Part shown: positions 19,251 to 48,344 of the stretch, piece by piece
Position numbering within the stretch: the first letter of the stretch is position 1
Layout of the letters: every line of letters begins with the position of its first letter
NCBI GenBank assembly: GCA_002855745.1
Contig: NDWX01000013.1
Coordinates: 1 to 48,694 of the forward strand
Source: Thermofilum sp. NZ13
GTDB lineage: Archaea > Thermoproteota > Thermoprotei > Thermofilales > Thermofilaceae
Direction of reading: 5' to 3'
DNA length: 48,694 nt
The notes under the pieces: generated by a model
Databases searched by the model: none
Told to the model about the DNA's origin: nothing
Seen by the model: the letters and a program-made list of their open reading frames with translations, nothing else
Translations under genes and position numbers: made by a program

Positions 19251-19263
19251 AAGAGGGGGCTAT

Positions 19264-19529: not shown

Positions 19530-19554
19530 TGCTCGAACACCCTCCCGCAACCCC
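19530..19554 (-). repeat. 25-bp dispersed repeat, copy 1
   Basis: Exactly the reverse complement of 31157-31181. In both places the repeat lies upstream of a copy of the winged-helix-like gene in the same relative orientation (280 bp here, about 60 bp there). The core on the gene's strand is TTGCGGGAGGGTGTTCGAGC. This marks the two loci as copies of one mobile or duplicated unit. Confidence 0.75.
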
Positions 19555-19657
19555 CCTCCAGCCCGATGGAAGCTGGGAAGACGCAGTTCGAATACGAGAA
19601 GAATCTAGGGAAAATCTAAAAATAGCATTGCTTAGGTATTAGATAACGGATGAACGC

Positions 19658-29513: not shown

Positions 29514-31093
29514 CGGTTGCGGTGCTTATAGACGGGTACACGGATGAGCCTGCGGGCCTCGGCGTCCCACCCTATATCGACGTATACCCTCGATACCTTG
29601 CGGGCGCGATCTGGCACGCCGATAAGACCGCGAAGCTCTACTACTTCACGATCGACGCATATCGCTCAAACGAGACGAGCATCTCCAGTATAATCGCCAA
29701 AGCAGACCTCCTCATAGTTATCGGCGGCGTTGTCGTCCCTGGGCGATACCTCGGCGGCAAACCCATAACTCCTCAAGAGATAATCTCAATACCAAAGAAA
29801 TACGAAAAGCCCCTCAAGGTTCTCTGCGGCCCAGTAGCCCGCTTCGGGACCGCGCTGCGGGGTGGGGAAAGAGCAGTTCACCCGAAGGCTCTCGAGGAAG
29901 CATACGACCTCATCATCAGGGGCGATCCAGCGCATGTAATTTACGAACTACTCGTCGAGAAGAGCGTTGAAAAAGTGAACCCGTTCAAACTACCTTCCGA
30001 CTACCGCCTAACGGACATATTCGCGGTGAAGGGGGCAAGAGTGGTGCTACAGCACCCCAACCTAGGGTTTAACTTGACAGCAGAGATAGAGACCTTCAGG
30101 GGCTGCCCTCGGTGGCTATCCGGCGGATGCTCTTTCTGCATCGAGCCACGCCTCGGTCGAGTAGTGTGGCGCGAGCAGGAAGCTATAGCCTCAGAAATCA
30201 GGGCTCTCTACGAGCTAGGTGTCCGAGCCTTTCGGCTCGGGAGGCAGAGCGACTTCCTGGCGTACAAGGCTAAAGGCGTGAATGAAGTGGAGTACCCTGA
30301 GCCGGCCCCTGAGGAGCTCGAGAAGCTCTTCCAGGCGGTGAGGAGGGCCGCACCAAGCCTGGAAACATTACACATTGACAACGTGAATCCGATGACGATA
30401 GCTCTCCACGAGGAGAAGGCTGAGAGAGCAATCAAGATCATCATTAAGTATCACACTCCCGGTGACGTCGCGGCTTTTGGACTAGAGAGCGCTGACCCGA
30501 TAGTATCTAGGGAGAATAACCTCGGGAACAGCGCGGAGGATGTTCTGAAGGCCGTCGAGATCGTGAACCACCTAGGTAAACGGAGGGGTTGGAACGGGCT
30601 GCCGGAGCTCTTACCTGGGTTAAACTTCGTGTTAGGCTTGAAGGGAGAGACGAAGAAGACCTTCGAGTACAATAAGGAGTTTCTTGAAGAAATCCTCAGG
30701 AGGGGGCTACTGGTGAGAAGGGTCAACATAAGGGAGGTCCTTCCCCTACCGGGCACGCCGATGTGGAATATAGGGGACAAGATAGCTAAGAGGCACAAGA
30801 AGTTCATTCTAAGCTTCAAGAGATGGGTTCGCGAGTACTTCGATGTTGAAATGATGCGAAGGCTTTTTCCTAGGGGAACAGTGATCAGGAGGTGCTACAT
30901 CGAGGCGATTGTTGATGGAAAATTCGTTGCGAGACCTACTGGGAGCTACCCGGTAACGGTATTTCTCGATGAAGGGAAAGTGGGCTCAAGAGTGGAGTGC
31001 GTCGTATACGACCATAAGGCTAGGAGCCTACTCGGCGCGAAAATGCCTCTCACTACGCGCAACAGGCGAGTGCGTCGCAATGCTACCTTTTAG
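29510..31093 (+). CDS. Radical SAM protein with CX7CX2C cluster motif and TRAM-like C-terminus (COG1031-like)
   Basis: 527 aa. N-terminal residues 1-170 are a Rossmann-like cobalamin-binding-type region (VAVLIDGYTDEPAGLGVPPY, LLIVIGGVVVPGRYLGG). The radical SAM cluster motif is ETFRGCPRWLSGGCSFC (C199, C207, C210), with wider than usual spacing. The barrel continues with FRLGRQSD, LHIDNVNP and VAAFGLESADP. The last 60 residues (RPTGSYPVTVFLDEGKVG, RVECVVYDHKARSLLGAKMP) look like a TRAM-type RNA-binding domain, as in tRNA-modifying methylthiotransferases. This suggests a nucleic-acid modification enzyme, but the substrate is unknown. Translationally coupled to thiL. A hairpin containing the 25-bp repeat lies after the stop. 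Confidence 0.78.
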   Translation: MTVAVLIDGYTDEPAGLGVPPYIDVYPRYLAGAIWHADKTAKLYYFTIDAYRSNETSISSIIAKADLLIVIGGVVVPGRYLGGKPITPQEIISIPKKYEKPLKVLCGPVARFGTALRGGERAVHPKALEEAYDLIIRGDPAHVIYELLVEKSVEKVNPFKLPSDYRLTDIFAVKGARVVLQHPNLGFNLTAEIETFRGCPRWLSGGCSFCIEPRLGRVVWREQEAIASEIRALYELGVRAFRLGRQSDFLAYKAKGVNEVEYPEPAPEELEKLFQAVRRAAPSLETLHIDNVNPMTIALHEEKAERAIKIIIKYHTPGDVAAFGLESADPIVSRENNLGNSAEDVLKAVEIVNHLGKRRGWNGLPELLPGLNFVLGLKGETKKTFEYNKEFLEEILRRGLLVRRVNIREVLPLPGTPMWNIGDKIAKRHKKFILSFKRWVREYFDVEMMRRLFPRGTVIRRCYIEAIVDGKFVARPTGSYPVTVFLDEGKVGSRVECVVYDHKARSLLGAKMPLTTRNRRVRRNATF

Positions 31094-31156
31094 GTTTTCC
31101 CTGTTTTCTTCCCGTGTTCGACCCGCGTCTTCCCTCGCTTCCAGCGGACTTGAGAA

Positions 31157-31181
31157 GGGGTTGCGGGAGGGTGTTCGAGCA
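31157..31181 (+). repeat. 25-bp dispersed repeat, copy 2, inside a hairpin
   Basis: Identical to the minus strand of 19530-19554. Here it is flanked so that AAGGGGTTGC (31155-31164) pairs with GCAACCCCTT (31179-31188), forming a 10-bp stem that may also end the upstream operon's transcript. Confidence 0.7.
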
Positions 31182-31242
31182 ACCCCTTGAGGCTCTCAGC
31201 TCACCGCGGTCACGGCACCTGTGAACGCCTATAAACTCCCTC

Positions 31243-31596
31243 ATGCGCTTGGCTGTGATGGTCGAGGTAGACAGGGAGGTGTGGGAGAGCGTGGCTAGGT
31301 GGCTCGAGCTGACTGGATTGACGGCTATGCTCTGGAGGCTCAGGCAGCCCAAGCCGCTCAGCAGGGCCTTCGCCACGAGGAACACCAGGCACATCGCCTC
31401 GGCCTTGGAGAGGCTGCGCTCAGCCGGCTTCGTGAAAGAAGCGGTAGTCGGCAATGTGAGGTACATCTACCTCACCGAGCGGGCGTGCGGCCTCCTCTCG
31501 CTGCTCGGCTACAGCATCGAGGAAGTGGCCTGCGGCGATACTGCCCTGAGGCTCCTGAGGCACTGCGGGAGTGAGCCGGCGGCTACCCCGGGCTGA
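31243..31596 (+). CDS. Winged-helix-like small protein, intact copy of a duplicated gene
   Basis: 117 aa from ATG 31243 (MRLAVMVEVDREVWESVARW). The middle (LWRLRQPKPLSRAFATRN, then ALERLRSAGFVKEAVVGN, then VRYIYLTERACG) has the helix-helix-wing order of winged-helix regulators. The C-terminal part (LLGYSIEEVACGDTALRLLR) is helical. A second, broken copy is at 18941-19250 on the minus strand, and both are preceded by the same 25-bp repeat. There is no known family name. It stands at the border of the defence-like island and could regulate it, or could belong to a mobile unit. Confidence 0.65.
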   Translation: MRLAVMVEVDREVWESVARWLELTGLTAMLWRLRQPKPLSRAFATRNTRHIASALERLRSAGFVKEAVVGNVRYIYLTERACGLLSLLGYSIEEVACGDTALRLLRHCGSEPAATPG

Positions 31597-32494: not shown

Positions 32495-35400
32495 ATGGTT
32501 AGCGTAGGCTATGATGAGCGGTGGTTGCAAGGAAAGATTCTCATCTGGATGAACGAGATACTCAGGGAGTACGGTCTCCCCTTCGAGGCGGTTGAGCAGG
32601 AAGTCAAGATAAGTACCCCAAAGGGTCTTAGGAGATACCCAGACCTCATAGTGTGGTACAAGAAGCCCGATAAAATAGCTTGTCTAATAGAGCTTAAGGT
32701 GCCTACAATCGATGTATACAGCGACGACTTAGTTAATGATGCACTCCAGAAAGCGATGCTAGTCGGGATACCCTTCTTCGCCACCTGGAACCTGAACAAG
32801 CTAGTCCTATGGGAGACCTTCAAGCCCGGGACTAGCCTATTCGACAGGAGGCTTAAGCACTGGGATGTAGTCGACGTAAAACTGCCCTCTGACATTGAAA
32901 GACCTGAGATAGAGAAGGCCGTTAAGGCCTTCATATTAGAGTTCCTGACCGAGCTGACAAGGCTGTACGAGCGCAAGCTGCCAAGACCCGAGGCCTACGT
33001 GCTACCCAAGCTGTACCCCGACGACATAATGGTCCTGAGGCTGAGGAGCGCCGTGGACTCTCTCTACATCCCTATCTCGCTCTACATTCTAAAGAAAAAG
33101 GAGGAAGACTTGAACTTCCGCAGAAAAGTTGGAGAATGGTTCGTAAATCAAGGCTGGATCTTTAGCGGCTCGGAAGAGGACTATGACAGGTTAGCCCGTC
33201 AAACGGTTTATCTTCTAATTAACAAGCTACTGTTTTACAATGTCTTAAGGTCTAAGTTCAAGCTAGAGCCCATTGTTATTAGTGACGTTACCACTAGTGA
33301 AGGGTTGAAGGAGCGATTGCAGAGATATTTCAACACAGGAATAAGACTGGGCTATGGAATCATTTTTGCTGCAGATTTCCTAGAGACTATACCTATACCC
33401 GACGAAGCTGTAGATGAGCTCAAAAAGCTGATAGCGGAGCTCAACAAGTACGACTTCTCTGAAATAGGCTACGACATTATAGGCAAGGTCTTCGAGAAAC
33501 TGATACCAAAGATCGAAAGGCACAAGCTAGGCCAGTACTTTACGAGGACTGATGTAGTAGACTTAATTCTAGGCTTCACAGTCAAGCATCCCAACGCCAG
33601 GGTGCTCGACCCGGCCTGCGGCTCAGGGACGTTCCTCGTAAGAGCCTATCAGAGGAAGAAGTACCTGGCGGAGAAGCTCTACAGAGAGGGCAGGTACGAC
33701 AAGCCCCGCAAGCTCCATAATGAGGTGATAAACGAACTCTGGGGAGTGGACATAGCGAAGTTCCCGGCACATCTATCCGAGATAAACCTTGTGATAAGGG
33801 ACCTTGAGGCCTTAGAGAACAGACCTAACATTGTGTGCAGGGACTTCTTTGAGATACAGCCGGGCACTAGGACCCTGCTGTATGAGCTTGCCTACAAGAT
33901 CCCGGATATGCATGAGGAGGTAGAGGTAGAGTTCCCTGCGGAGTTTGATGCTGTCGTAACCAACCCGCCCTACACGAGGCAAGAGGAGATAGAAGACATG
34001 CTGATAGGGGGGTATAAAGAGAGGCTGAGAGCCCTCGTAAAGAAAATGCACAAAATAGATGTGGGCATGAGGTCCAGCATATACGTTTATTTCTTCATAC
34101 ATGGCGGCGCGTTCGTCAGAGACGGGGGGCGCCTAGGGCTCGTGACCTTCAACTCGTGGTTGGATGTGGATTTCGGGAAGTACCTTCAAGAGTATTTCCT
34201 CAGGAATTTCAAGATAATCGCTGTAATCGAGCCTAAGTATGAGAAGTGGTTTGAAGACGCAGATGTCACAGCGGCTATCACTATACTGGAGAGAACAGAC
34301 GACCCGAAAGAACGAGATGAGAACCTAGTGAAGTTCGTGCAGATAAAAGTTCCCCTAAGAGAGCTTATACCAGAACCCGGCGATGTTGATCAAGATAGAA
34401 TTAGATGGGAAGCCATAGATAAGCTTGTAGAATTCATCGAGAAGACCGACAAGTACTACGAGGATTCTAGGATAAGGATATTCCCTAAGAAGCAGAGAGA
34501 ACTCTGGGACGAGGGGTACGATGACGAAAAGGAGAGGTACGTCGGCTCGAAGTGGGGCAAGTACATTAGAGCACCCGAGATATTCTTCAAGATACTACAA
34601 CACGGTGCTGAAAGAGAGATACTAGTACCACTAAAGGAACTGGCCGCCGTAAGAAGGGGGTTTACAACGGGGAGCGACGAGTTCTTCTATCTCGATAATG
34701 ATAGAGTTGCTCGCTGGGGTATAGAGAGACGCTATCTGCACCCCGTGATCATATCTCCACGTGAGTCAAAGGATATAGTCATAGATAAGTCAAAATTAAA
34801 GTATAAAGTTCTTCTTGTTAATGAGCCTAAGGAAGAACTGGCTGGGACAAATGTCTTAAAGTATATAGAGTGGGGCGAAACTCAAGGATTTCATCTCAGA
34901 GATACCTGTCGGTCGCGAATCCCTTGGTATGCTCTAGGTGCTAAAGAACCCGGTCCCATACTATGGCATAGGCGTCACTACTCAAGGCATATAGTATTTT
35001 TAAACATTAAGGATCGCGTATACGTCGATGATGGTTTATTCGAAATAATACCTCATAATGAGAAATACGTGCTACCTCTAGCGGCTTTGCTAAATTCAAC
35101 GATGTATGCTTTTCTAAAATTCTTCTATGGTCGTGGTACGGCGGGTGGAAGAGCAATAGAAACAGGAGGCATAGATATCGCTAAAATGCCTATAATAGAT
35201 CTCAGAAAGCTTGACAGATACGTAATAGATAAGCTGGCATCTATCTTTAGTAAGCTCTTAGAGAGACCGATAGAAAACATAGAAAGTGAGGTGAAGAAAC
35301 CCGATAGGCGTGAGCTAGATCGCTTGATCCTAGTCGATATCCTAGGGCTAGAGGACAAGGACTTGGAAGATCTCTACAAGTCTGTAATGGACTTAGTAAA

Positions 35401-35905
35401 AGTGTTGATAATAAGAGATAATATGAAACCTAAGAAAACGCATAAAGGTCCGAACGTAAATGCCATCGCAACTAGCTTAAGCAGGAATTTCGCGCATTAC
35501 CTCAAAGTCTTTCCTGATGAGTACGTTGGGAACTACCGGGGTGAGTGGGAAGAAATTAATGTTCCGACAGCTAAGAGGGTTGAGTTAGGCTCTGACATCG
35601 GAGGGGTTTACGTTAAGGTTAACGACACAGAGATTTACCGGGGATGGAATCGCTCGGCCGCTGAGTACATATACTACTCGATACTGTTTGGCAGTTTAAA
35701 GGTTAAAATTCCCAAAGACAAAGAATTTGTTGAAGAATGCGTGAGAAAATTCAAGGAAGACTTAGATAGGATGAAGGACGAACTGAACAAAATGATCGAA
35801 GCCAGTATACCTGACGCGAAGATTCGCGAGGAGGTTAAGAGTCTCGTTCTTAGGAAGGTGTTTGAGATATTAAAAAGCAGGCAGAGAACTACGGGAGCTC
35901 AATAA
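32495..35905 (+). CDS. PD-(D/E)XK nuclease fused to adenine-specific DNA methyltransferase (PglX/DrmMI-like, type IIG-like)
   Basis: 1136 aa. Residues 1-150 hold a PD-(D/E)XK-type nuclease: YPDLIVWY (D50) and ACLIELKVP (E66, K68). A helical linker follows (150-350). The methyltransferase core begins LGQYFTRTDVVDLI, has SAM motif I VLDPACGSGTFLVRAY (near residue 372) and catalytic motif IV VVTNPPYTRQ (near 490), as in N6-adenine enzymes. The part after about 715 (LKELAAVRRGFTTGSDEFFY and on) is a target-recognition-like domain, and the end is helical. This layout resembles type IIG restriction enzymes and the methyltransferases of BREX (PglX) and DISARM class 1 (DrmMI). It overlaps the convergent Lhr-like helicase gene by 17 bp. 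The likely role is to mark host DNA and possibly cut unmarked DNA. Confidence 0.87.
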   Translation: MVSVGYDERWLQGKILIWMNEILREYGLPFEAVEQEVKISTPKGLRRYPDLIVWYKKPDKIACLIELKVPTIDVYSDDLVNDALQKAMLVGIPFFATWNLNKLVLWETFKPGTSLFDRRLKHWDVVDVKLPSDIERPEIEKAVKAFILEFLTELTRLYERKLPRPEAYVLPKLYPDDIMVLRLRSAVDSLYIPISLYILKKKEEDLNFRRKVGEWFVNQGWIFSGSEEDYDRLARQTVYLLINKLLFYNVLRSKFKLEPIVISDVTTSEGLKERLQRYFNTGIRLGYGIIFAADFLETIPIPDEAVDELKKLIAELNKYDFSEIGYDIIGKVFEKLIPKIERHKLGQYFTRTDVVDLILGFTVKHPNARVLDPACGSGTFLVRAYQRKKYLAEKLYREGRYDKPRKLHNEVINELWGVDIAKFPAHLSEINLVIRDLEALENRPNIVCRDFFEIQPGTRTLLYELAYKIPDMHEEVEVEFPAEFDAVVTNPPYTRQEEIEDMLIGGYKERLRALVKKMHKIDVGMRSSIYVYFFIHGGAFVRDGGRLGLVTFNSWLDVDFGKYLQEYFLRNFKIIAVIEPKYEKWFEDADVTAAITILERTDDPKERDENLVKFVQIKVPLRELIPEPGDVDQDRIRWEAIDKLVEFIEKTDKYYEDSRIRIFPKKQRELWDEGYDDEKERYVGSKWGKYIRAPEIFFKILQHGAEREILVPLKELAAVRRGFTTGSDEFFYLDNDRVARWGIERRYLHPVIISPRESKDIVIDKSKLKYKVLLVNEPKEELAGTNVLKYIEWGETQGFHLRDTCRSRIPWYALGAKEPGPILWHRRHYSRHIVFLNIKDRVYVDDGLFEIIPHNEKYVLPLAALLNSTMYAFLKFFYGRGTAGGRAIETGGIDIAKMPIIDLRKLDRYVIDKLASIFSKLLERPIENIESEVKKPDRRELDRLILVDILGLEDKDLEDLYKSVMDLVKVLIIRDNMKPKKTHKGPNVNAIATSLSRNFAHYLKVFPDEYVGNYRGEWEEINVPTAKRVELGSDIGGVYVKVNDTEIYRGWNRSAAEYIYYSILFGSLKVKIPKDKEFVEECVRKFKEDLDRMKDELNKMIEASIPDAKIREEVKSLVLRKVFEILKSRQRTTGAQ

Positions 35906-38894
35906 TGTAATGTTTCTTCCCGCCAAAAACATTGCTAACTATTGCCTTGTATATTGAGCATATTAGTGCAATCACCAGTTTATCTAAAAAGTAGGTTGGC
36001 ACGGAGCTGTGGATTACTGTTACACGAGTCCCCCTTAGGTGCACTTTTACGTTAATGCGGTCTCCTAAAGATCTTTTCAACTTCTTACTTAGTGCTGCAA
36101 GGACGATAGGTAGGGCCCCATCTATCCTGAGCGAGTACTTCTGTTCCGGTGCCGTGAATCTTCCGTACAATGTCACATCCACAATGTTTCCTCTTTTACC
36201 TAGCTTGGTCAGCAGCTTTGGGAAGTCTTTTAAAGCCTCCTTCTCAAAAAGCTCCAAGTCTTCTTCTCTACGTATAACGAAGTACTTTACAGCGACAGGC
36301 ACTCTCGTAGCAACCCACTCTTCTGTAAGAGGTATCTTGGCTACCGTCCACCCACTAGTGTCTGGATCTAGAACGGCTAGGATAGGCTTCTCTACCATGA
36401 TCTCTTGGAGTTCCTTTTTGATGTCGAGTGGGCTACCCCAGCTGTACTCGAGTAGCTGGTCGAAGGTTACGACCTTAGTTCTCGAGATAGCCTCCTCGAT
36501 TACCGCTCTGAGAGTCTCTTGCCAGGGTCTCTCGAACGGGTATCTGACTATGCTTTCCGCAAGGCTACTAGGCTTATCGCACACCGCAACCACTACGCTT
36601 AACTCGCCCCTACTTAGCCTTCTTACAACATCGAGGGAGCTAGGCACATCGTAGTAAAGTAAGATGGCCTGCCTAGCCGCCTCCCTTCTAATTAATATCT
36701 CGTCGGATGGAAAGCCGAAGTGTTCCCTGATTTCATCAATGATTAACCTAGTGTACGGAGACCTCTTGTAGACATGTCTCTCAACTAGCATCTCTAGCTC
36801 TTCAGGACTAATGCTCTTGAATGCCTCAAGGGGGTCAAGTACCTCTGACTTTATGGCAAACCCGTGAGGCGCGATCACGTATTTTACGAGAAGGCTTTTC
36901 TCGGCTATCTTCTCGTAGACAGTTGCAGCGAGCGTCCTGTTCACTTGCTCGCCCATGAAAGTTATGAAGACTGTCATCTTTGCAGAGGGCACTTTCTCAA
37001 CGACTATGTGGCCCTTAAGGAGCGGCTCTAAGTATTCATCCCCCAGCTTTGAAACATATTCTTCCACGAGTTTAGCTACTACCTCGTCGGCACCGAAGTT
37101 TCTTAAGATGTCTGAGCTTTCTCTAGTTTTCTTAAGTACTTCCAGCATTCTCCTCGCCACCAGCTTATGGCGTTGTGGCCCTTCGCCCTTCCACGTTGGA
37201 GCGATTCCTCGCTCGTCGGTTTTGATCACTATTACCTTGCGGTCTCTTTCGTCAATCTCCACCACCTTCCAGTTCTGCCCGGCGAGCCTGATGACCATGC
37301 CGCTGGACAGCGCTCTGTAGACATAGGAGGAGTCCAGCTCTCCGATCTTCCTATACTTCTTCAGCCCGTACTCCTCGATGACGCTGAAGGTCTCTCTCTT
37401 AGGTATCATGCTGAAGAACTCGCTGAAGCTCAGCGACTGACCATTACTCTCATCTTGGCTGAACCTCCACACCTTCCAGAACTTCGACCCAGGCAATAGT
37501 ACGCGGCCTTCTATGCTGATTATCTCTTCGTTAGCAAGGAGTTGCAGAACATCGTTGAACTCTTTTACTGTAAGGTCCCTAAATATTGTTGACTTATTTA
37601 TGACCCTATAGGCTTGGTCGATTGTCATGAGGATGAAGCCGTTACTGCGCTTTCTCTTCCAGAAACGTCTTAGCTTGTAGTTGTGCAACGCTATCCCTAC
37701 AACCTCCTTGGTCAGCACGTCTAGGGGCTTGCTTATCACCGTTGGCTCTTCAATTCTCTCTTCCTTTGCTAAGCTTACAATGGCTATGCTCTCTAAGTAG
37801 TCCTCAATGTCTGTTGTGACTATCTTGCACTCGGACTCCTGACCCGGCCTGTGTTTGCTCCTGCCGGCTCTCTGTAGCAACGCAGAAACCTGACCGGGAG
37901 ATCTATACTGGACTACTTGGTCTATGTCTCCTACGTCTATACCTAGCTCGAGGGTCTTGGTAGCTATTAGGCATCTAAGGAGCTCGGTTTTAAACGTGTC
38001 CTCAAAGATCTCTCTTTCCTCCCTCTCGATCGAGCCGTGGTGAACGTTGCAGCCCACACCCATATCGCTTAGCACAGATTGCAACCTCTCTGCAGAGTAC
38101 CTCGAGTTAGTAAATACGAGGGTCTTCTTGCCTCCTCGGATGCACTCCGCTATCACTCTGGCCCCTGCGAGGAACGGGTCCTCATGCTCCTCATCGGTTT
38201 CGGGCACGCCGAGCCTTACCTCGAATTTATAGTGTCTCCTCTCGCTTGATTCTATAACTTTAACATCACCGTCGGATCCTCCTAGTAACTCTGCTACTTT
38301 TGAAGGATCGCCAGCGGTAGCCGAAAGACCTACCCTCTGAAGCCCTGTTTGCGTAAGCTCCTTAAGCCTCTCCAGTAGCACCAGAAGCTGGTAGCCTCTC
38401 TTCGTCATAAATAACTCATGTACCTCGTCGATAATGACCCACCTGACTGTTCTTAAGTGCAACCACCATTTGGGCGACCAGTCGAGGACTATCTCTAGGC
38501 TCTCCGGTGTGATTACTACTATGTCGGGGGTTGGCTTCCTGTAGGTCTTTACAACATCACCGTACAAGGGCCTAACCTTGAGACCTAGGGAAGTAGCGTA
38601 GTACTCTATCCTGTCCCTTAGGTCTCTGGTGAGCGCTTTTAGAGGGTTGATGTAGACGAGCTTTACTCCCTCTGCTTCGCGGCAGTTCCTGTAGATGAGG
38701 TCTAGTATGGGTAAGAGCGCGGCTTCGGTCTTCCCAGAGCCTGTCGGGGCTATTAACAGAGCGTTCTTGCCTCTTATGATCTCAGGTATCGCGAGCCTCT
38801 GTATCTCCGTCGGCTCGCGTAGCTTCCTTGCCACACATTCTTGCAACCTTTCGTTTAGTAGCGTGAAGGGGTACACGGGAGTTCCTTTTTCCAT
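35889..38894 (-). CDS. Lhr-like SF2 helicase in defence cluster (BrxHI/COG1201-like)
   Basis: A 1001-aa helicase. It starts MEKGTPVYPF and has LREPTEIQRLAIPEI (Q-motif-like), LLIAPTGSGKTEAAL (Walker A, A49-T56), VRWVIIDEVHELFMTKRGYQ (DEVH box near 155), GLSATAGDPSKVA (motif III), TLVFTNSRYSAERLQ (IV), ATKTLELGIDVGDIDQV (V) and LLQRAGRSKHR (VI). DEVH, the RGYQLL continuation and the long C-terminal part are Lhr-family features; Lhr cores unwind DNA and RNA-DNA hybrids 3' to 5'. Lhr-like helicases occur as BrxHI in some BREX systems. It is convergent with the methyltransferase gene and divergent from the DrmA-like gene, with an AT-rich divergent promoter at 38895-38985. A purely cellular Lhr role is the alternative, but its position inside the cluster argues for defence. 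Confidence 0.85.
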   Translation of the reverse strand: MEKGTPVYPFTLLNERLQECVARKLREPTEIQRLAIPEIIRGKNALLIAPTGSGKTEAALLPILDLIYRNCREAEGVKLVYINPLKALTRDLRDRIEYYATSLGLKVRPLYGDVVKTYRKPTPDIVVITPESLEIVLDWSPKWWLHLRTVRWVIIDEVHELFMTKRGYQLLVLLERLKELTQTGLQRVGLSATAGDPSKVAELLGGSDGDVKVIESSERRHYKFEVRLGVPETDEEHEDPFLAGARVIAECIRGGKKTLVFTNSRYSAERLQSVLSDMGVGCNVHHGSIEREEREIFEDTFKTELLRCLIATKTLELGIDVGDIDQVVQYRSPGQVSALLQRAGRSKHRPGQESECKIVTTDIEDYLESIAIVSLAKEERIEEPTVISKPLDVLTKEVVGIALHNYKLRRFWKRKRSNGFILMTIDQAYRVINKSTIFRDLTVKEFNDVLQLLANEEIISIEGRVLLPGSKFWKVWRFSQDESNGQSLSFSEFFSMIPKRETFSVIEEYGLKKYRKIGELDSSYVYRALSSGMVIRLAGQNWKVVEIDERDRKVIVIKTDERGIAPTWKGEGPQRHKLVARRMLEVLKKTRESSDILRNFGADEVVAKLVEEYVSKLGDEYLEPLLKGHIVVEKVPSAKMTVFITFMGEQVNRTLAATVYEKIAEKSLLVKYVIAPHGFAIKSEVLDPLEAFKSISPEELEMLVERHVYKRSPYTRLIIDEIREHFGFPSDEILIRREAARQAILLYYDVPSSLDVVRRLSRGELSVVVAVCDKPSSLAESIVRYPFERPWQETLRAVIEEAISRTKVVTFDQLLEYSWGSPLDIKKELQEIMVEKPILAVLDPDTSGWTVAKIPLTEEWVATRVPVAVKYFVIRREEDLELFEKEALKDFPKLLTKLGKRGNIVDVTLYGRFTAPEQKYSLRIDGALPIVLAALSKKLKRSLGDRINVKVHLRGTRVTVIHSSVPTYFLDKLVIALICSIYKAIVSNVFGGKKHYIIELP

Positions 38895-38985
38895 GTCTTC
38901 TATATTCTTCAGTTGCCGCCTTCATATAACATTAGCCATAAAACTTATTAGGAAATACGGGTACAATTACTTAATCCGGTATCTG
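38895..38985. promoter_or_regulatory. Divergent promoter between the two helicase genes
   Basis: 91 bp of AT-rich DNA between the minus-strand helicase ATG (38894) and the first plausible plus-strand starts. CCATAAAACTTATTA (38936-38950) is a TATA-like box for the plus strand, about 40 bp before GTG 38986; the minus strand has TTATATG 36-42 bp before ATG 38894. Confidence 0.5.
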
Positions 38986-41325
38986 GTGGTGAACATCCCG
39001 ACTGAGGACGAGATTGTTGATGCATATCACGCGCTTATCGACCTCGAGTACAGGAAGTATGTTAATAGTAATGAGCGTTTTGAGGATTCTTGGCACAGTT
39101 ACAATGAGGCTATAGGCATTATCTCATCGTGTCTCTCTAAACCCCCAACAGAGGCGGGGGAGATCTTCCGAGATCTTCTGGAGAGAGGATTCATAGTGAG
39201 AATAGGAGGAGATAAGTACAGGACGCTTCACTTCGACATAGCGTATAGGGCTTCCAACATCAGAATAGAGCACGGTAGCCTTAGGTACCCGCTCGAGGCT
39301 AAGGTATACGTTAGAGACGAGGAGATACCGCGTTTCGACGACCACCCCTTCGCGGCCTTGAGGGACGCAGTGGATCCAGAAGTGTATGAAGCGCTCGAGT
39401 ACGCCATTTTTAAAGATGTCAATCCCAGGGAGCCGGGCAGGATAGCGGGCTTCTCCGACTTCCAGCTCAGAGCAATAAGGGCGCTCTTGAAGGGCGACAA
39501 GAGGGCCTACATACTAATCGCTCCCACATCTGGAGGTAAAACATACGCTTTCCTAATACCAATTTTAGCTAAAATCATAGAAGCAAAGCTACAGGGGGGA
39601 GAGGGAGAGAAGAGGGTAAAAGCTCTCATTATCTACCCAAGGAAAGCTCTGGAGAGAGATCAGCTCAACAAAATCATCGCCATACTCTACAGGATAAACT
39701 ACTATTTTAAGCATGTAAAGGGCTTAAACACGGAGATAACGATAGGCATAGACGATGGCGAGACCCCCTGGGAGCGAGGTGTTAGGTCGAGAACATCTTA
39801 CAGGGGCGCTATATGCCCCTACAGCGATGGGAGCCTTGAGTACTTCGTGGCTAGCGGGTTTAAGGGGATAAGGTGCAGGCACTGTGGGAGAAGGTTCGAC
39901 TGGATATACGGCTACAGAGAGCAGATATGGAGTGAGAAGCCAGACATACTTATAACTAACGTCTGGACGCTAGATTTCAGGCTTCCTAGCAGGACAATAG
40001 AGCATGATTACGCCCTCTTCAAAGGCCTGTCAATAATAGTTCTCGACGAGGCACACGTGTATCAGTCGCTACTTGGAGGGAACGTTAGGTACCTGCTTAA
40101 GAGGCTCAAGCTGGCCTCGAGCGGCGAGCCTATGATCGTTCTCTCCTCGGCTACGATATCGAAGCCCGAGGAGTTCGGAAAGAACATACTAGACCTCGAG
40201 CCGAGTAAAGAGTTCGAGGTGGTGGAAGCTGGCAAGAAAAGAGCGAAAAAGAAGGTGGTCTATCTCATAATGGCGGTACACCCACAGCGCTCTTGGGAGA
40301 CCGCCGTATATGAGCTAGCGCTACTCTTAGCCACGGTCTTCAAATACAGAGGGCTCCAGAGCGTTATCTTCATAGACAGCCTCAGAGAGCTCTACCGGGT
40401 ACATAGCCAGATGCTCAGGGTAGCGGCACTCTATTACCAAGAACCTAAGGACCACTTCGACGCAAATATTGTCGCTGACCCAGATGATCCATACAATTAC
40501 CAGGTATACATGAAAAGAGGGGACACGTTTGATCCATACAACACACCCATCGAGATTTACAACTATGTAAAGCTTCACCACGCCAACGTGAAAGACAGAG
40601 AGATTATAGAAAGGGAATTTGTGGATGGGAGATTAGGAGTGCTAATATCGACTTCGACACTAGAACTCGGCGTAGACTACCCTAACGTGAGCATAGTTGC
40701 AACAATAGGCATTCCCTTCATGTTAGAGAGTATACCCCAGAGGATCGGCAGGGCTGGTAGGGACCGCAAAAAGACCCTCAATACCACACTCGCAATCATT
40801 CTGCTGAGGAACACCCCTCTAGAACTCTACTATTTGTACAAGCCCGAGGATCTGATAGAGGGCTACAGGAAGAAGGACATACCAGTCGCCTGGAGGAACA
40901 TCGCGGTCAAAAAGTATCACGCACTTTTCACGGTATTCGACGAGATGGCGCGTAACGGCATCGATACATGCATCCTACGAACCGACGGTAGGCTAAAAGA
41001 TCTAGACGAGTTTGTCTACAAGATACTCGACTTTATCGATAAGACGAAGGAAAAGCTCGCCGTATTGGCTTCTCGAACTGAAAGGGATGAAGATCCACCC
41101 CAAGAGGTGGTAGAGGATATTAGGAGAGAGTTGAGAGCAATCCCGAAGAGAGTAGAGGAGTGGAGGAAGGCTCATGACACCATCTTAGATGCTTACGGGG
41201 TTCTAGCTAACGTAAGGAAATTGGCCAGACGACTAACCGTGCTCGCGTGGAAGATTGGTGACCGGGACTTAGAGAGAGAGTCGCGAGAGATGCTTGGCTT
41301 GATTTGGCGTGCCACATCGGGGTGA
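38986..41325 (+). CDS. DrmA/MrfA-like SF2 helicase, DUF1998-associated type
   Basis: 779 aa from GTG 38986. Motifs: FSDFQLRAIRALL (Q region), ILIAPTSGGKTYAFLIP (Walker A near 179), ALIIYPRKALERDQ (Ia), IIVLDEAHVYQSLLGGNV (DEAH near 354), VLSSATISKPEEFG (III), ISTSTLELGVDYPNV (V), IPQRIGRAGRDRKK (VI, near 585). Between motifs I and II a small insert with cysteines (CPYSDG, then CRHCGRRFDW, about 276-299) may bind zinc. This is the helicase type that occurs with DUF1998, as in MrfA/YprA and DISARM DrmA, but here the DUF1998-like part is in the next gene, whose ATG follows after 4 bp. ATG 38893 is an alternative start adding 31 residues, but it would overlap the start codon of the opposite helicase gene. 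Confidence 0.83.
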   Translation: MVNIPTEDEIVDAYHALIDLEYRKYVNSNERFEDSWHSYNEAIGIISSCLSKPPTEAGEIFRDLLERGFIVRIGGDKYRTLHFDIAYRASNIRIEHGSLRYPLEAKVYVRDEEIPRFDDHPFAALRDAVDPEVYEALEYAIFKDVNPREPGRIAGFSDFQLRAIRALLKGDKRAYILIAPTSGGKTYAFLIPILAKIIEAKLQGGEGEKRVKALIIYPRKALERDQLNKIIAILYRINYYFKHVKGLNTEITIGIDDGETPWERGVRSRTSYRGAICPYSDGSLEYFVASGFKGIRCRHCGRRFDWIYGYREQIWSEKPDILITNVWTLDFRLPSRTIEHDYALFKGLSIIVLDEAHVYQSLLGGNVRYLLKRLKLASSGEPMIVLSSATISKPEEFGKNILDLEPSKEFEVVEAGKKRAKKKVVYLIMAVHPQRSWETAVYELALLLATVFKYRGLQSVIFIDSLRELYRVHSQMLRVAALYYQEPKDHFDANIVADPDDPYNYQVYMKRGDTFDPYNTPIEIYNYVKLHHANVKDREIIEREFVDGRLGVLISTSTLELGVDYPNVSIVATIGIPFMLESIPQRIGRAGRDRKKTLNTTLAIILLRNTPLELYYLYKPEDLIEGYRKKDIPVAWRNIAVKKYHALFTVFDEMARNGIDTCILRTDGRLKDLDEFVYKILDFIDKTKEKLAVLASRTERDEDPPQEVVEDIRRELRAIPKRVEEWRKAHDTILDAYGVLANVRKLARRLTVLAWKIGDRDLERESREMLGLIWRATSG

Positions 41326-41329
41326 TGCT

Positions 41330-43933
41330 ATGAGCTTTGGGGAGCTTGAGAGAATCGCTGACAGGATTGAGGCATACCTCAGCAAGGCCCAAATGAAACT
41401 ATACCAAGAGATAGGGAGACTCTCGACAACCGGAGAAGAGAAGCTCGTAGAAAGGCTTCACAGAATTTCAGCTGAAATATGGAGTTCCTTACGTGAGGTT
41501 AGAGAGAAGAAACCGGTCATAGAGAAGTTTGTAAACCTCGTTAAAAGGACTAGGAGCATGCCTGAGGACATCATCAACCTATTATCGCTTACCGAGCTAC
41601 CAGTCACGCAGGGCGGGGGCAGAGTCGTAGTCGAGGGTATCGTGGGCTACAGGGGGTTAGGCATAGAGACTATAGACCACCACCTGAGCAAGGTTAGCTA
41701 CGAAAACGTCGAAGAGCCTCGAGGAGAAGGCGCGCCGACGAACGTCTCAATAACGAGCCTGATGTATAGGGTTCCGCCCTTCGAGCTAAGTAAGTGTGAA
41801 TATGAAAGAGAGAAGGACGAAGAAGTGACAAGGATTCTAGGCGCGAGACACGTATGGTTAGTAAAGCCTAAAGGAGTTACCGATAATTCATGGAGAAATG
41901 TTCTCACTAAGACTCTGGGCCGTGGGAATAAGGACGTAATCATAGGGAAGTACGACCCGATCGGTAGGATACTGCAGCTAAACACACTAAAACTTGTCGA
42001 TGTAACGCGGAGGTCTCTGGAGCTAGAGATAGTGGACACCAGCGGAAGGGACAGGTACGTATTTTTCCTCAAGCTGGGCAGCTCTGGGCTGGAGGAGCAA
42101 CTGAAAGGCGTGATGAGTAAGGAGAGAGTCTTAGAGGTCTTAAGGGAGAGGGAGAGGCAGGCGCCCGTGGAGCTTGGTCCCAGAGGATCCTGGCGTATAA
42201 GGCTCGACTACGTCTACTTCTGCTATAAAGGGCTGGCTATGTCAACCGATCCCTACGACCTCGAGTGTCCGTATAGAAACTGTCCTCTGAGAATAGGCAG
42301 TATGTGTGATGGAGAGAGGTTCTGGAGTGCGAAGTACTTTAGAAGGAAGCCCTATCCGAAGGTATACCCCCTAAGAAGCGTAGACCCGGGCCTCGGCGGC
42401 ATACCTTCTTATAGAGAAGCGCTTCCAACCGGTCTAATAACCTTTAGCGCTTACGATAAGCGCAGGATAGAGTCCGTGTGGTACGGAGTAGAGATGGGAA
42501 CTTGGTTCATTAGGGCTAGGCCTACCATCAGGATATACTTCGACGATAGCTCCAAGATAGGGTACTCGATACCGACGTCGCTACTGGAGTTCTCTTTCAT
42601 AATGGAGTGGCTCGACAATGAAATAAAGACTATACTCCTTGAGAATGACGAGATAAGAAGGAGCATAGCTCTTAAATACGTCCTCTTAAAGAGCCTGGGG
42701 AGAAGGCTTGACTATGATAGACTCGCTAGAGCGTTAACCAACATAATGTCGGAGAGGGGTGAGGAGGCCGAGGAATTTGCCAAGTACTACAAGAGGAAGG
42801 AGATAGACGATGACATTCTTAGCTTCGCCCGGAGACTACTGTTACACTCGCTAACTCACATGCTGACGCAGTACATTCTCTATTGGCTGGTCGGAGTAGA
42901 CTACAACTTTATACTCACAAGATATTACTACAAGAACAGTGCGAAGATCTTCTTGGTGGAGAACGCTAAGAACGGCCGGCTTGGGATAGTGGATACGGTT
43001 GTTAAACATGTTAAAAGAAAGGGTTTGCCTGCTTTCCTGTTAGAGTTCACTGGGTGGCTTGATGTCTTCTTAGACATGCACGACAAAGACTTCGACAAGA
43101 TATCAGCTGAGCGTAAGAGCGAAGCTACTAGGCTGATAGCAACGACTATTAGAAGGCTCAAAGTTGAGGATCCGGGGAAAGCAGACAGGCTGATCAAGGT
43201 AGATGATATAGTTCGTAGCTTCAGAGACGAGCTGGAGAACGCAGGGTTAGAGCTTGACATAGCCCTGGCCAGAATCGTGTTATTGGCGAGCAATAAGGTT
43301 AGAGAAGACTTAATCCAAGATATTGAGGACTACTTCGACGACGTGCTTGAGAAGAACGGCTTCCGTCTCTGCTGGGACGGTTGCAATGCCTGCGTTAGAC
43401 TCGAGAAACACTGCAACGAGGGAATATACCAGGTGCTTACAACTAGCAAAATGCTTCTCCAAGAGTTTACTAAGCACCTCCGAAGCATTCTATCTAAGGG
43501 AATTAACGATACCTCTAGGAGCGTTGGGAGAATCCTCGAGCCTCTCCTCATGGGGGCTAGGAGCTCTCTTGATATCTCGAGCCCCTTCATCTCTCCGAGA
43601 TACGCTAGGATGCTCATAGAGAAGTCGAAAGAAGGGGTTAAGGTAAGAGTTTTGACGTCCGCGCCCCCCGAAGGCGAGCTAGAGCACCATCTTGAAGCGC
43701 TAGAGATTCTTAAGCTGAGCACTAGCGACTCTCTAGAGGTGAGGATCGTTGAGAGCCTACACGCTAAGATTTACATCATTGACAAGAAGATAGCGGTGAC
43801 AGGTTCCGCAAACCTAACGGAGAGCGGACTCTTTAGGAACCTAGAGCATATCGAGGTTAAGATGGAGCCGAAGACGGTGGAGGAGAACGTGAAGATGTTC
43901 GAGAATCTATGGGCTAACGCTAACCCTATTTAA
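41330..43933 (+). CDS. DUF1998-like protein fused to a phospholipase-D domain (DrmB-DrmC fusion)
   Basis: 867 aa. The N-terminal 130 residues are helical. A first cysteine group, ECPYRNCPLRIGSMC, is near residue 310. The DUF1998-like part has RRLLLHSLTHML (near 505), AKIFLVENAKNGRLGIVDT, and the closing zinc-type motif LCWDGCNACVRLEKHC (about 680-696). The last 150 residues are a PLD domain: SSLDISSPFISPRYARMLIE, then a single HKD motif SLHAKIYIIDKKIAVTGSAN (His near 811). DISARM uses DUF1998 (DrmB) and PLD (DrmC) as separate proteins; here they are one chain. GGGGTGAT just before ATG 41330 is a good ribosome site; a GTG at 41309 would overlap the previous gene. It overlaps the convergent methyltransferase gene by 4 bp. 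Confidence 0.82.
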   Translation: MSFGELERIADRIEAYLSKAQMKLYQEIGRLSTTGEEKLVERLHRISAEIWSSLREVREKKPVIEKFVNLVKRTRSMPEDIINLLSLTELPVTQGGGRVVVEGIVGYRGLGIETIDHHLSKVSYENVEEPRGEGAPTNVSITSLMYRVPPFELSKCEYEREKDEEVTRILGARHVWLVKPKGVTDNSWRNVLTKTLGRGNKDVIIGKYDPIGRILQLNTLKLVDVTRRSLELEIVDTSGRDRYVFFLKLGSSGLEEQLKGVMSKERVLEVLRERERQAPVELGPRGSWRIRLDYVYFCYKGLAMSTDPYDLECPYRNCPLRIGSMCDGERFWSAKYFRRKPYPKVYPLRSVDPGLGGIPSYREALPTGLITFSAYDKRRIESVWYGVEMGTWFIRARPTIRIYFDDSSKIGYSIPTSLLEFSFIMEWLDNEIKTILLENDEIRRSIALKYVLLKSLGRRLDYDRLARALTNIMSERGEEAEEFAKYYKRKEIDDDILSFARRLLLHSLTHMLTQYILYWLVGVDYNFILTRYYYKNSAKIFLVENAKNGRLGIVDTVVKHVKRKGLPAFLLEFTGWLDVFLDMHDKDFDKISAERKSEATRLIATTIRRLKVEDPGKADRLIKVDDIVRSFRDELENAGLELDIALARIVLLASNKVREDLIQDIEDYFDDVLEKNGFRLCWDGCNACVRLEKHCNEGIYQVLTTSKMLLQEFTKHLRSILSKGINDTSRSVGRILEPLLMGARSSLDISSPFISPRYARMLIEKSKEGVKVRVLTSAPPEGELEHHLEALEILKLSTSDSLEVRIVESLHAKIYIIDKKIAVTGSANLTESGLFRNLEHIEVKMEPKTVEENVKMFENLWANANPI

Positions 43934-45402
43934 ATTCTCTCTAGCCTTATCAGGTAGAGGAACTTATCCTTCCCGTGTACCCCCTGCGCCGACGACCTGA
44001 GCTTAGGGAAGTACTTCTCAATTTCTATCTTAAAGGATCCGTCAATCTCTTTCCGGAGTATGTCGACGGTCCTGCTAAACGTCCTAGAGCTTCTGTTGTG
44101 TAGGATCAGTACGATCCTACCCCCTTTTCTAACCAGCTTCTTTGACTTATTGACTAGTAGAACTATGCTGGACAGGTAGTCAGAGAGCTTCCTCCCGACA
44201 ACTCTGTTGATGTCTATTTCATGGCGCCAAAAGGAGTAATCGCTGAACCTGGTATCTCTGTACCTGCCTTCCAGCCACTTCTGCCATAGGTAGAGTAGCT
44301 CGTAATAGTGGATTTCATCATAATGTGGCGGATCCATTACGATAACATCTGCCCTGGTTTTCGATTCCAGTAAGTCGCGTGCATCGCATCTGAGGATTAG
44401 GACTCTCCTCTTCATCTTAAGCGGAAGCTTCGGCAGGCTGTTGTAGTCAAAGTGGGCACTCACGTCGTAGTCCTCAGCGACCCTAGCCCAGTTATTCTTG
44501 AAGTTGCGGACCAGGATTAACCTGCGTAGGAAGCTCTTGCAGAAGTTCCTCTCCTCCCTTATATACGGAATCCAGTACCTCGGCAACTTCCACGAAGGAC
44601 CGCTAGAATCTGTGTGTGGAATCATCTTTGTAGCTTGCGGAAGAGCCGCTATGAAGGCTAGTTTGAGAAGATCCCCTTGGTCTTCATCCTCCGCCCAGAA
44701 ATCTTCTATTACCTCATACAGTTTTGAAGCAACGTATAGATTCCTCTTAGTGAAGAGGTCCTCAAGCTTAGGCGCCAGAATTCCGGGATGCTCTCTGAAT
44801 TCCCTCCCGAGTTCATCGTACTTAAATTCTCCCTCCGGATGCCACGATGTTATAGTGAAGGTTTTTTCACTCTCCTGGTAGTCTTCAATCAGTCTCTGCT
44901 CCTCTATAAGCCCTTCCTCGAGGAAGAGCGATACCACCTTATCTCTCTTATCTGCAGATAAAGCGGGTTGAAATAATGCACCACAACTCTCACACTTCAG
45001 TTTTTTATTATATCTCGCTCGGCGGGGGTCAACCCAGCTACCGCATTGAGGACATTGAAACTCCGTTACCCACACTGCATACTTGAGAACCTTTCTTTGA
45101 CCATTGGTCGATAGTGTATAAGCTTCCCTCTCTAGCTCTATGCAAAGCTCTTGGATCTCCCTTAGAGTTTTCTCTTTGAGTGTGTGTTTATTTAGAAGAG
45201 TCCAAGAGATGAAAACAGCGACCGGATTTATGTCGGCTAATACCGCGGAACTTCCTACTTTTACAGCCGCCTCTCCTACAGTGCCAGAACCCGCGAATGG
45301 GTCAAGGATAAGCTTAGCACCTTTTACTTCTCTTAGGTAAATCCCCACGGGTTTTCTAGCCCAGAACTTTATGACCTGATGGACGGATGGCATTGTCTGC
45401 AT
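43930..45402 (-). CDS. DNA methyltransferase with zinc ribbon (COG1743 / DUF1156-like)
   Basis: 490 aa. It starts PSVHQVIKFWARKPVGIYLR, the beginning usual in DUF1156-type methyltransferases, and has SAM motif LILDPFAGSGTVGEAA (D34), ADINPVAVFISWTLL, a zinc ribbon QCPQCGSW and CESCG (about 116-140), and catalytic motif VIVMDPPHYDEIHYYELLYL (near 357, DPPH in place of DPPY). The order of motifs (SAM site first) and the DPP-H/Y suggest an amino-methyltransferase acting on N6-adenine or N4-cytosine. It is the second methyltransferase of the cluster. Its 3' end overlaps the DUF1998-PLD gene by 4 bp. COG1743 enzymes also occur in DISARM-like and other helicase-associated defence loci. Confidence 0.83.
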   Translation of the reverse strand: MQTMPSVHQVIKFWARKPVGIYLREVKGAKLILDPFAGSGTVGEAAVKVGSSAVLADINPVAVFISWTLLNKHTLKEKTLREIQELCIELEREAYTLSTNGQRKVLKYAVWVTEFQCPQCGSWVDPRRARYNKKLKCESCGALFQPALSADKRDKVVSLFLEEGLIEEQRLIEDYQESEKTFTITSWHPEGEFKYDELGREFREHPGILAPKLEDLFTKRNLYVASKLYEVIEDFWAEDEDQGDLLKLAFIAALPQATKMIPHTDSSGPSWKLPRYWIPYIREERNFCKSFLRRLILVRNFKNNWARVAEDYDVSAHFDYNSLPKLPLKMKRRVLILRCDARDLLESKTRADVIVMDPPHYDEIHYYELLYLWQKWLEGRYRDTRFSDYSFWRHEIDINRVVGRKLSDYLSSIVLLVNKSKKLVRKGGRIVLILHNRSSRTFSRTVDILRKEIDGSFKIEIEKYFPKLRSSAQGVHGKDKFLYLIRLERI

Positions 45403-46732: not shown

Positions 46733-48076
46733 ATGGAGAGCGCGGGCAAGCCTCAGCGGGAGGCAGAGTTCCAGCCGCTCCCGGAGCCCCGCTTCCCGTG
46801 GGGGCGTGTGCTCCTCGTCGCCGCCTTATACTTCGCCTCTACGGCTGCATTCCCCCTCCTTTTCACACCGCAGGATCCTAGTGAAGCTACTTACTGGAAA
46901 TTAATCGGTTGGGGGAGTCTAGCACTAAGCTTAGGCACACTCCACCTATACCCTATTTCACGGAGATTCCTCGAATACTCGTCGAGGTTTAAGGCGCACT
47001 CCAAGAGCCGAACTGACCTCGTCGGTAGTGTTATTATCGGTCTGTTTCTTACAGGTCTCGTCTTCTACATAAGAACTATACCCCCGGGGAGCCCACTCGC
47101 GTCTTATCTATATCTTCTTGCTTGTTTTCTAGTTCTTATTGGATTCGTGCAGCTCCCGTATTCCTTGATCGAGTCCCCGAGCACTCGCTGGGCTTCATTC
47201 GAGCTCTTGGAAAAGGAGTTGAACATGAGATTTTCCTTGACGGCCTCGGTTTGGGGCCTCGTCACAGCACTCATCCTCGTTCTCATCCCCCCACTACTCG
47301 CTCTGTTCGTAATTCTGCTTATGGTCTCCGTAACGATAGTACTATTTATTGTAACTCCGAGCTCTTCAATCGAGCTTAAGTACCTGCTCTTACTCGTAAT
47401 CATACTAGCTGTACCTGTAGGATTGTATCTATTGTATCTGAAGTTTACTGTGAATATAAGCCCCCGCCCTCCCACGGAACTATACCTTATCGATTTCCTA
47501 AAAGGCATGGCATCACTCGCATCATTCGCGCTTAAATTCCCCCTTGACTGGTCTATTGACCTTCTTGCTTCACATGTACCTGCGCCCCTGCCTCCCAAGC
47601 CTTCTAAGGCACGCGTTTGCGAAGCGAGGCGGGGTGATTCCGGTGACCTGTTTCTAAGCTTCGTGCTGGAAAGAGAAGCCGAGGAGGGCGGCTGCGTTAA
47701 GGGTGAGTTCATCGCCCTCGCCGACGCGAATAGCCGGGGCGGCGGCTCCGGCGGGCTCCTGTGCGCTAGCGGGCGGGCGCGCCTGGTCAAGCGGCGCGAC
47801 GACAGCCCCTCGGGGTTCGCGGTGTACATCCCGGGCGAGCGGAGCGCGCTCCTCGACGCCTACCTGAAGCTGGGCAGCGGCCTCGCCGGCGTGAGCAGGC
47901 TCATCGTACTCCTGACGCTCCGCTACACCTTCCCGCTCAAGGGCACCTTGACCGAGACCCACGTCCTGCTTGTCGAGCCCGGGGAGGAGAGGGTGGAGGA
48001 GCTCTTCAGGTTCGCGGGCGAGCCCTCCGGGCTAAAATTGGCTATTACCCGAGCCGAGCCACAGGCTACACACTGA
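46733..48076 (+). CDS. Polytopic membrane protein with C-terminal soluble domain, hypothetical
   Basis: 447 aa. About six hydrophobic helices lie in residues 24-240 (for example VLLVAALYFASTAAFPLLF, VGSVIIGLFLTGLVFYI, ILVLIPPLLALFVILLMVSV, YLLLLVIILAVPVGLYLLYL). Residues 260-447 are soluble, with a likely beta-rich domain (SKARVCEARRGDSGDLFLSF to LLVEPGEERVEELFRF). The DNA of the membrane part is AT-richer than that of the start and of the soluble part (47690-48060), so the gene is mosaic in composition. No family recognised. Its 3' end overlaps the convergent SWIM gene by 11 bp. Confidence 0.7.
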   Translation: MESAGKPQREAEFQPLPEPRFPWGRVLLVAALYFASTAAFPLLFTPQDPSEATYWKLIGWGSLALSLGTLHLYPISRRFLEYSSRFKAHSKSRTDLVGSVIIGLFLTGLVFYIRTIPPGSPLASYLYLLACFLVLIGFVQLPYSLIESPSTRWASFELLEKELNMRFSLTASVWGLVTALILVLIPPLLALFVILLMVSVTIVLFIVTPSSSIELKYLLLLVIILAVPVGLYLLYLKFTVNISPRPPTELYLIDFLKGMASLASFALKFPLDWSIDLLASHVPAPLPPKPSKARVCEARRGDSGDLFLSFVLEREAEEGGCVKGEFIALADANSRGGGSGGLLCASGRARLVKRRDDSPSGFAVYIPGERSALLDAYLKLGSGLAGVSRLIVLLTLRYTFPLKGTLTETHVLLVEPGEERVEELFRFAGEPSGLKLAITRAEPQATH

Positions 48077-48344
48077 GCCTCAGCTGCCTCCTGTGCAGCA
48101 TCACCGTAGCTATGTGGCTGCATATTCTAGCCTTCCTGACGTAGCCGTACGCGCTGGAGAAGCAGTCGCACCTGTACTTTCCCCCGCTTATCCACACGTT
48201 GTACCAGGGGTAGGTGTCGCCCAGCTCAGCGAGCCCCTTGACGAGCCAGTGCTCATTGCCCACTCTCTCAACTTTCCCGGCGAAAGCCCTGCTATCGGAA
48301 TAAAACCATTCATGCTGTAAATCCAAAAACAACAAGAGGCGCAA
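48066..48344 (-). CDS. SWIM zinc-finger protein
   Basis: 92 aa, beginning with TTG 48344 (encoded RLLLFLDLQHEWFYSDSR follows). The SWIM motif is C-x-C-xn-C-x-H: C59-D-C61 and C75-S-H77 in KYRCDCFSSAYGYVRKARIC. SWIM fingers bind DNA or proteins and occur in archaeal mobile and recombination-related proteins. A TATA-like CTTAATAG lies directly upstream. Most of its 5' half lies inside the window-end inverted repeat, and a fragment of a close copy is at 18848-18949. It may be the cargo or accessory gene of a small mobile element. Confidence 0.72.
   Translation of the reverse strand: MRLLLFLDLQHEWFYSDSRAFAGKVERVGNEHWLVKGLAELGDTYPWYNVWISGGKYRCDCFSSAYGYVRKARICSHIATVMLHRRQLRLSV

Follow-up and report, generated by a model that had tools for sequence, protein, structure and literature searches.

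The literature describes DISARM, Dpd, Druantia, ARMADA, BRIGADE, TALON, BREX-related systems and further uncharacterised DISARM-like classes (PMC12458937, PMC12839542). DISARM, which serves here as the model of mechanism, comprises the genes DrmA, DrmB, DrmC, DrmM and DrmD/E, of which DrmC was reported to be non-essential and did not co-purify (PMC9142583). The split arrangement of helicase and DUF1998 protein is typical of DISARM, and ARMADA is a tested relative (PMC12458937). In Thermoproteota, few multi-gene defences have been reported beyond restriction-modification, CRISPR-Cas and argonautes (PMC12988326). We describe here a five-gene cassette (positions 32495-45402, genes lettered A to E in that order) carried by a 48,694-nt stretch of Thermofilum sp. 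NZ13 (contig NDWX01000013.1), the whole of which is called the window. We propose, with moderate confidence, that this cassette is a strain-variable, ATP-dependent antiviral system of the restriction-modification type, built on a YprA/DUF1998 core and related to DISARM rather than being DISARM itself. The combination of genes is real and conserved, apparently undescribed, and belongs to a known kind, the YprA/DUF1998 restriction-like defences.

The five long open reading frames (ORFs) are all present in the orientations given by a preliminary description of this DNA, and the 17-bp and 4-bp overlaps that it listed were found between A and B and between D and E, together with a second 17-bp overlap between C and D. 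The gap of 4 bp that it listed for B and C does not exist; it arose because the longest ORF was taken as the gene. The orthologue of C in locus L031 (QMSC01000011.1, "Thermoprotei archaeon isolate B14_G17", a metagenome-assembled genome or MAG) starts further in, with an ATG 85 bp from B, and in the window C most likely starts at the GTG at about 38986, which would leave a divergent intergenic region of about 91 bp, conserved in L031. The cassette is organised as follows.

32495..35905, + strand: A, type IIG-like restriction enzyme/N6-adenine methyltransferase, 1136 amino acids (aa)
35889..38894, - strand: B, Lhr/BrxHI-like superfamily 2 (SF2) helicase, 1001 aa
38895..38985: divergent B/C intergenic region, with AT-rich stretches kept in L031
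38986..41325, + strand: C, YprA-family (DrmA/DpdJ-like) helicase core, about 779 aa
41309..43933, + strand: D, DUF1998/MZB (DrmB-like) protein fused to a phospholipase D-type (PLD; DrmC/DpdK-like) nuclease, 874 aa
43930..45402, - strand: E, D12/DUF1156-like DNA methyltransferase with a zinc ribbon, 490 aa

The core of the proposed system is formed by C and D. Pfam finds the DEAD and Helicase_C domains in C, which has a Cys-rich insertion in RecA1; its best solved structure is MrfA/YprA (E 5.5e-34) and its PADLOC scores are nearly tied between DrmA (116.8 bits) and DpdJ (116.2 bits). Two regions were delimited in D.

43544..43912, + strand: PLD nuclease domain, Pfam PF13091 (PLDc_2), E 1.2e-19, aa 746-868, with the motifs HAKIYIID (aa 818-825) and GSANLT (aa 832-837)
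42806..43414, + strand: MZB/DUF1998 region, LLLHSLTHML...ENAKNGRLGI plus the four-Cys cluster CWDGCNACVRLEKHC (aa 688-702)

The PLD part is matched by the DrmC models of PADLOC, and DpdK also scores on it. For the preceding region, neither PF09369 (DUF1998/MZB) in Pfam nor the DrmB models of PADLOC gave a match to D itself, and in a search of its profile against solved structures only PLD proteins rose above chance. The D homologue in a related locus (L076) exceeds the PF09369 cut-off (27.4 versus 24.2 bits), an alignment of 12 homologues conserves the block HTLAHLL...E..GGLGL, with a C-x-D-G-C-x2-C...C cluster in most of them, and hhalign links the D family with DrmB from two DISARM-type loci of archaea (E 8e-6) and with the C-terminus of a long DpdJ, which holds its Cys cluster (E 2.8e-5); nothing significant was obtained by hhalign against BRIGADE-like and Druantia-like helicases and a Deinococcus helicase. 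In addition, when a hidden Markov model of the D family was run on the DISARM-like locus L138, its DrmB was found at E 2e-7 and its DrmC at E 2e-9. On the strength of these profile comparisons, we read D as the fusion of a DrmB-like module with a DrmC/DpdK-like nuclease. The DUF1998-like plus PLD fusion on which the preliminary description had staked its reading of the fourth protein is thus borne out, directly in Pfam for PLD and through relatives for DUF1998.

The other three genes encode two methyltransferases, which belong to different classes as had been claimed (A being IIG-like and N6-adenine-type, E being D12/DUF1156-like), and a second helicase. Pfam finds Eco57I and N6_Mtase domains in A, whose best PADLOC match is the type IIG restriction enzyme-methyltransferase (184 bits, aa 47-969), with 52 bits as PglX and 44.6 bits as DrmMI. 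By these scores, A resembles type IIG restriction enzymes more closely than it does PglX, and the BREX-type methylase partner of the preliminary description is not supported for A; its BrxHI-like partner, in the form of B, is. The methylase motifs of A are DPACGSG (aa 372-378) and NPPY (aa 490-493), and two further features complete, at the level of sequence, the type IIG make-up of nuclease motif, N6 methylase and putative recognition domain in one chain.

32639..32698, + strand: PD-(D/E)xK-type motif of A (P49 D50 ... E66 L67 K68, aa 49-68), identical in L031
34592..35644, + strand: putative target recognition domain of A, the diverged C-terminal part, about aa 700-1050

Pfam matched no nuclease domain in A; D50 and K68 of the motif are invariant also in stand-alone IIG relatives (34-37% identity). 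The identity of A to its L031 orthologue is 83% over aa 1-700 and 41% over aa 700-1136, the pattern expected for a putatively replaced or switched recognition domain. Helicase B contains the DEAD, Helicase_C, DEAD_assoc and WH_Lhr domains of Pfam and the motifs APTGSGKT, DEVH, SAT and QRAGR; its best PADLOC match is BrxHI (364.8 bits, E 2e-109) and its best solved structure is Lhr. This family is widespread (363 of 398 Thermoproteota genomes) and not diagnostic. E matches D12/N6_N4 and DUF1156-antiphage families weakly; its motif I (DPFAGSG, aa 34-40) precedes motif IV (DPPH, aa 357-360), with a zinc ribbon between them (CxxC knuckles from aa 117 and 137).

Compared with DISARM, the cassette shares a YprA core with a separate DUF1998 gene beside it (the split C/D arrangement), a PLD nuclease and a DNA methylase. 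It differs in that the PLD domain is fused to the DUF1998 protein instead of having its own gene as DrmC, that an Lhr helicase stands in place of the SNF2 helicase DrmD, that a IIG-type enzyme appears to stand in place of DrmMI with a second methylase of another class, and that C belongs to a clade of its own. Neither DrmD (SNF2) nor DrmE was found among the long ORFs of the surrounding island, where the second helicase is Lhr-like. Between 31.1 and 48.7 kb no PglZ or BrxC/PglY was found, and the only long genes are those of the cassette plus a 447-aa ORF without a Pfam match; the claimed lack of PglZ, BrxC and SNF2 genes therefore stands. With BREX type 2, which has PglX and BrxHI (PMC12839542), the cassette shares a methylase associated with an Lhr-like BrxHI helicase, and it lacks PglZ, BrxC, PglW and BrxD. 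The earlier formula of a DISARM core with BREX-type partners is retained for the combination of helicase, DUF1998 and PLD with a BrxHI/Lhr helicase, but "DISARM core" is too strong for a C protein that forms its own clade.

Other described systems resemble parts of the cassette. In Dpd, C has a near relative in the DpdJ-type helicase, DpdK scores on the PLD domain of D and the C-terminal Cys cluster of a long DpdJ aligns with D; in the cassette the helicase is split and methylases are present instead, no 7-deazaguanine modification genes being found among the five genes and the scanned flanking ORFs. ARMADA and Druantia also associate a YprA helicase with a methylase and a second helicase, but ARMADA has a one-piece YprA helicase with a C-terminal Vsr nuclease and a BrxHII/RapA (SNF2) helicase, whereas the cassette has a split helicase, a PLD nuclease and an Lhr-like helicase (PMC12458937). 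The Hma and DUF499-centred BREX-related systems (PMC12839542) are likewise archaeal helicase-methylase systems, and the cassette is without their DUF499 ATPase. Type IIG and type ISP enzymes combine nuclease, N6 methylase and recognition domain as A does, and an SF2 motor added to an IIG-like enzyme resembles type ISP; here the motor is a separate protein, B, accompanied by the YprA/DUF1998/PLD module. Finally, a deep YprA defence branch, its DUF1998 and PLD parts either separate or fused, is what the cassette shares with the uncharacterised DISARM-like classes, and the C-D-E set of Thermoproteota probably falls among them; the main text presenting these classes contains no class combining IIG, Lhr and a D12/DUF1156-like methylase and no mention of Thermoproteota. 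The cassette thus matches neither DISARM, BREX, ARMADA nor Hma and, in agreement with the preliminary description, no named system or published description with the same gene set was found in PADLOC or in the literature searched, supplementary tables lying outside this search.

L031 belongs to a different family of the same order and repeats all five genes with their arrangement and strands unchanged, so that the layout is more than chance, and the recurrence in other Thermoproteota that the preliminary description had proposed to look for is found. The two loci share about 77-79% DNA identity over nearly the whole 13 kb (protein identities of 67% for A, 78% for B, 86% for C, 79% for D and 73% for E), and the A-side flank is not conserved at the DNA level. 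The ratio of non-synonymous to synonymous substitution rates (dN/dS) is 0.08-0.14 for B to E (dS about 0.9-2.3; A is saturated), which shows purifying selection on these four genes. D was then surveyed in 398 Thermoproteota genomes, followed by inspection of the neighbourhoods. C and D are adjacent or fused in 12 loci, and the natural fusions (L077 and L079) support joint action of the two proteins. An E-type methylase was detected by profile searches in 11 of these 12 loci and in 0 of 11 control loci, the profile having been trained on seven of the 11 positives and the other four being weaker independent matches; it is adjacent in most loci and several genes away in some. In three loci (L032, L033 and L082) a DUF1156/DUF499/SNF2 set lies beside C-D, which we read from its sequence as being of the Hma or BREX-related type (PMC12839542). 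The A type, at E <= 1e-100, is limited to three of 81 genomes of the class, namely the window genome, that of L031 and G035. Considering these 12 loci, the stand-alone nature of the other relatives of A and the ubiquity of the B family, C-D, usually with E, appears as the recurrent core and A-B as a lineage-specific addition. The five-gene unit of the preliminary description is consequently kept whole in L031, while the unit that recurs is C-D, usually with E. A scan of genome contigs with D matched only the L031 genome, A, C and D found no relatives in IMG/VR, and D found none among plasmid sequences, so that carriage by viruses or plasmids is unsupported in those collections.

We infer the function of the cassette, the formation of a complex, the marks, the cutting and the union of A-B with C-D-E from these comparisons. 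C, as the helicase core, and D, as the DUF1998 canopy, would form a DrmAB-like translocating complex, which would load on foreign DNA wherever single strands or ends are accessible and translocate along it with ATP; this step is suggested by the analogy with DrmAB (PMC9142583), by homology, by the split and fused architectures and by the motifs. Because PLD is fused to D, we propose that translocation could be coupled to cutting by the C-D complex itself. A would methylate adenine, with its variable C-terminal domain recognising the sites, and might also cut, while E would add a second methyl mark. The marks of A and E would spare the host genome and C-D would cut unmarked DNA, a self-marking step to which the methylase motifs and the diverging recognition domain of A point. 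Our guess for B, by analogy with BREX type 2 and with type ISP logic, is a motor partner of A that would pull or unwind DNA where A finds no methylation. All five genes likely act as one system. More tentatively, they could form one integrated machine, in which a methylation-checking IIG enzyme with its separate Lhr motor would license a YprA/DUF1998 translocase bearing its own PLD nuclease, as a distinct archaeal class between type ISP restriction and DISARM.

Several points weigh against this proposal. Only two complete five-gene copies were found, both in MAGs or draft assemblies, and C does not group firmly with DrmA. The cassette is split over several transcription units (A+, B-, CD+, E-), so that any co-regulation is putative. 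The DPPH of E in place of DPPY makes its activity less certain. An AlphaFold model of D computed from a two-sequence alignment (pLDDT 30, pTM 0.21) was discarded as unusable, and the canopy fold of D rests therefore on sequence profiles.

The main rival is that two independent systems stand side by side, A-B being an ATP-assisted IIG enzyme (a split analogue of type ISP) and C-D-E a DISARM-like system, which we consider possible though not probable. Several Thermoproteota loci have C-D-E but no A-B, and the third A-B pair, in G035 of the same class, lies on a 5-kb contig without evidence of C-D-E, no strong D match being found elsewhere in this 69%-complete genome. The closest relatives of A outside the A-B loci are stand-alone IIG enzymes, and the last 200 residues of B diverge from L031 together with the putative recognition domain of A. 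However, no complete locus with A-B and without C-D-E was seen, and the B/C intergenic region and the C/D (17-bp) and D/E (4-bp) overlaps are kept in both copies despite near-saturated synonymous divergence.

A canonical class 1 DISARM with gene replacement (Lhr for DrmD, IIG for DrmMI and a DrmB-DrmC fusion) is improbable, even though DrmA, tied with DpdJ, is the best-named PADLOC match of C, DrmC models match D and the split layout is that of DISARM (PMC12458937). Trees of C were built with DrmA, DpdJ, Druantia-like, BRIGADE-like, MrfA-like and Lhr references and with relatives from across Thermoproteota, the DrmA references being only two, archaeal and on long branches. The Thermoproteota C proteins form one separate clade (support 100/99), whose preferred, though weakly supported, neighbours are DpdJ and DrmA (52/81). 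In approximately unbiased (AU) tests, a clade of the C family with these two archaeal DrmA references is not rejected (p-AU 0.29), whereas the tests reject a grouping of the window C with only DrmA (p-AU 0.007). Besides the failure of the DrmB models on D, true DISARM-type DrmA of the same phylum reaches 330 bits on the DrmA model, versus 117 for C. Such drmA-drmB-drmC loci are rare in the phylum (two of 300 genomes at E <= 1e-30: L137 in G050, C1, and L138 in G254, C69). In these trees C thus appears beside DrmA and DpdJ and not nested among DrmA, with either DrmA or DpdJ as its possible sister.

The genomic setting bears on the strain-variable character of the proposed system. A complete genome of the same species (G192) matches the window over at least 26.0-31.07 kb at 95% identity (97% at the edge) and then diverges; the cassette is absent from it and synteny breaks beside the cassette position. 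The flanks of the island are as follows.

31077..31554: left flank, first half of a dispersed repeat, with a winged-helix-like ORF at 31243-31596
48075..48288: right flank, the other half of that repeat, with a SWIM zinc-finger ORF at 48066-48344

The island (31.55-48.07 kb, 16.5 kb) lies exactly between these two halves, which are contiguous in the G192 copies, the winged-helix-like ORF being convergent with the SWIM ORF; the repeat has more than 20 matching places in G192 and a further copy in the window near 18636-19632. The island is therefore a strain-variable region; as the contig stops at 48694, it does not reveal the precise insertion event. A role in DNA repair or genome maintenance, to which the housekeeping repair helicases of the Lhr and YprA/MrfA families and the host's own YprA-type helicase elsewhere in the genome (G000 C13) might point, is very unlikely given the patchy distribution of the genes and their absence from the same-species genome, the two DNA methylases, IIG enzyme with diverged recognition domain and PLD nuclease, and the DUF499/DUF1156/SNF2 (Hma/BR-type) genes among the neighbours of relatives.

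D escaped every DrmB model of PADLOC as well as DUF1998 in Pfam. The cassette, like the broader C-D-E module, thus suggests that divergent DISARM-like systems of Thermoproteota go undetected by the standard models. The presence of helicase canopy and nuclease in one polypeptide bears on the question of which nuclease acts with DrmAB, DrmC having been found non-essential and not co-purifying (PMC9142583). The cassette further illustrates how DISARM-like systems may recruit type IIG enzymes and Lhr helicases.

Some neighbouring features deserve mention. In two relatives, a 422-426 aa protein is encoded directly upstream of C (L078 13171-14448 and L080 14814-16079); neither PADLOC nor, with confidence, Pfam matched the L080 copy. 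Two small ORFs, 45898-46197 (+) and 46301-46627 (-), adjoin the cassette in both the window and L031 and have no confident Pfam match; they are a possible accessory or toxin-antitoxin-like pair and were left out of the system because matching DNA is multicopy on other contigs of the same genome (C4, C33 and C1). At the contig end, 48261-48694 is a 97% inverted repeat, parts of which match both strands in G192, and may be an assembly fold-back. Finally, a 516-aa protein (16364-17914, - strand) has a Cas12f/TnpB-like TNB zinc domain (28.8 bits, cut-off 26.3), and as DNA like this region lies beside repeat copies in G192 (L085 and L086), the dispersed repeat may belong to a TnpB-associated element.

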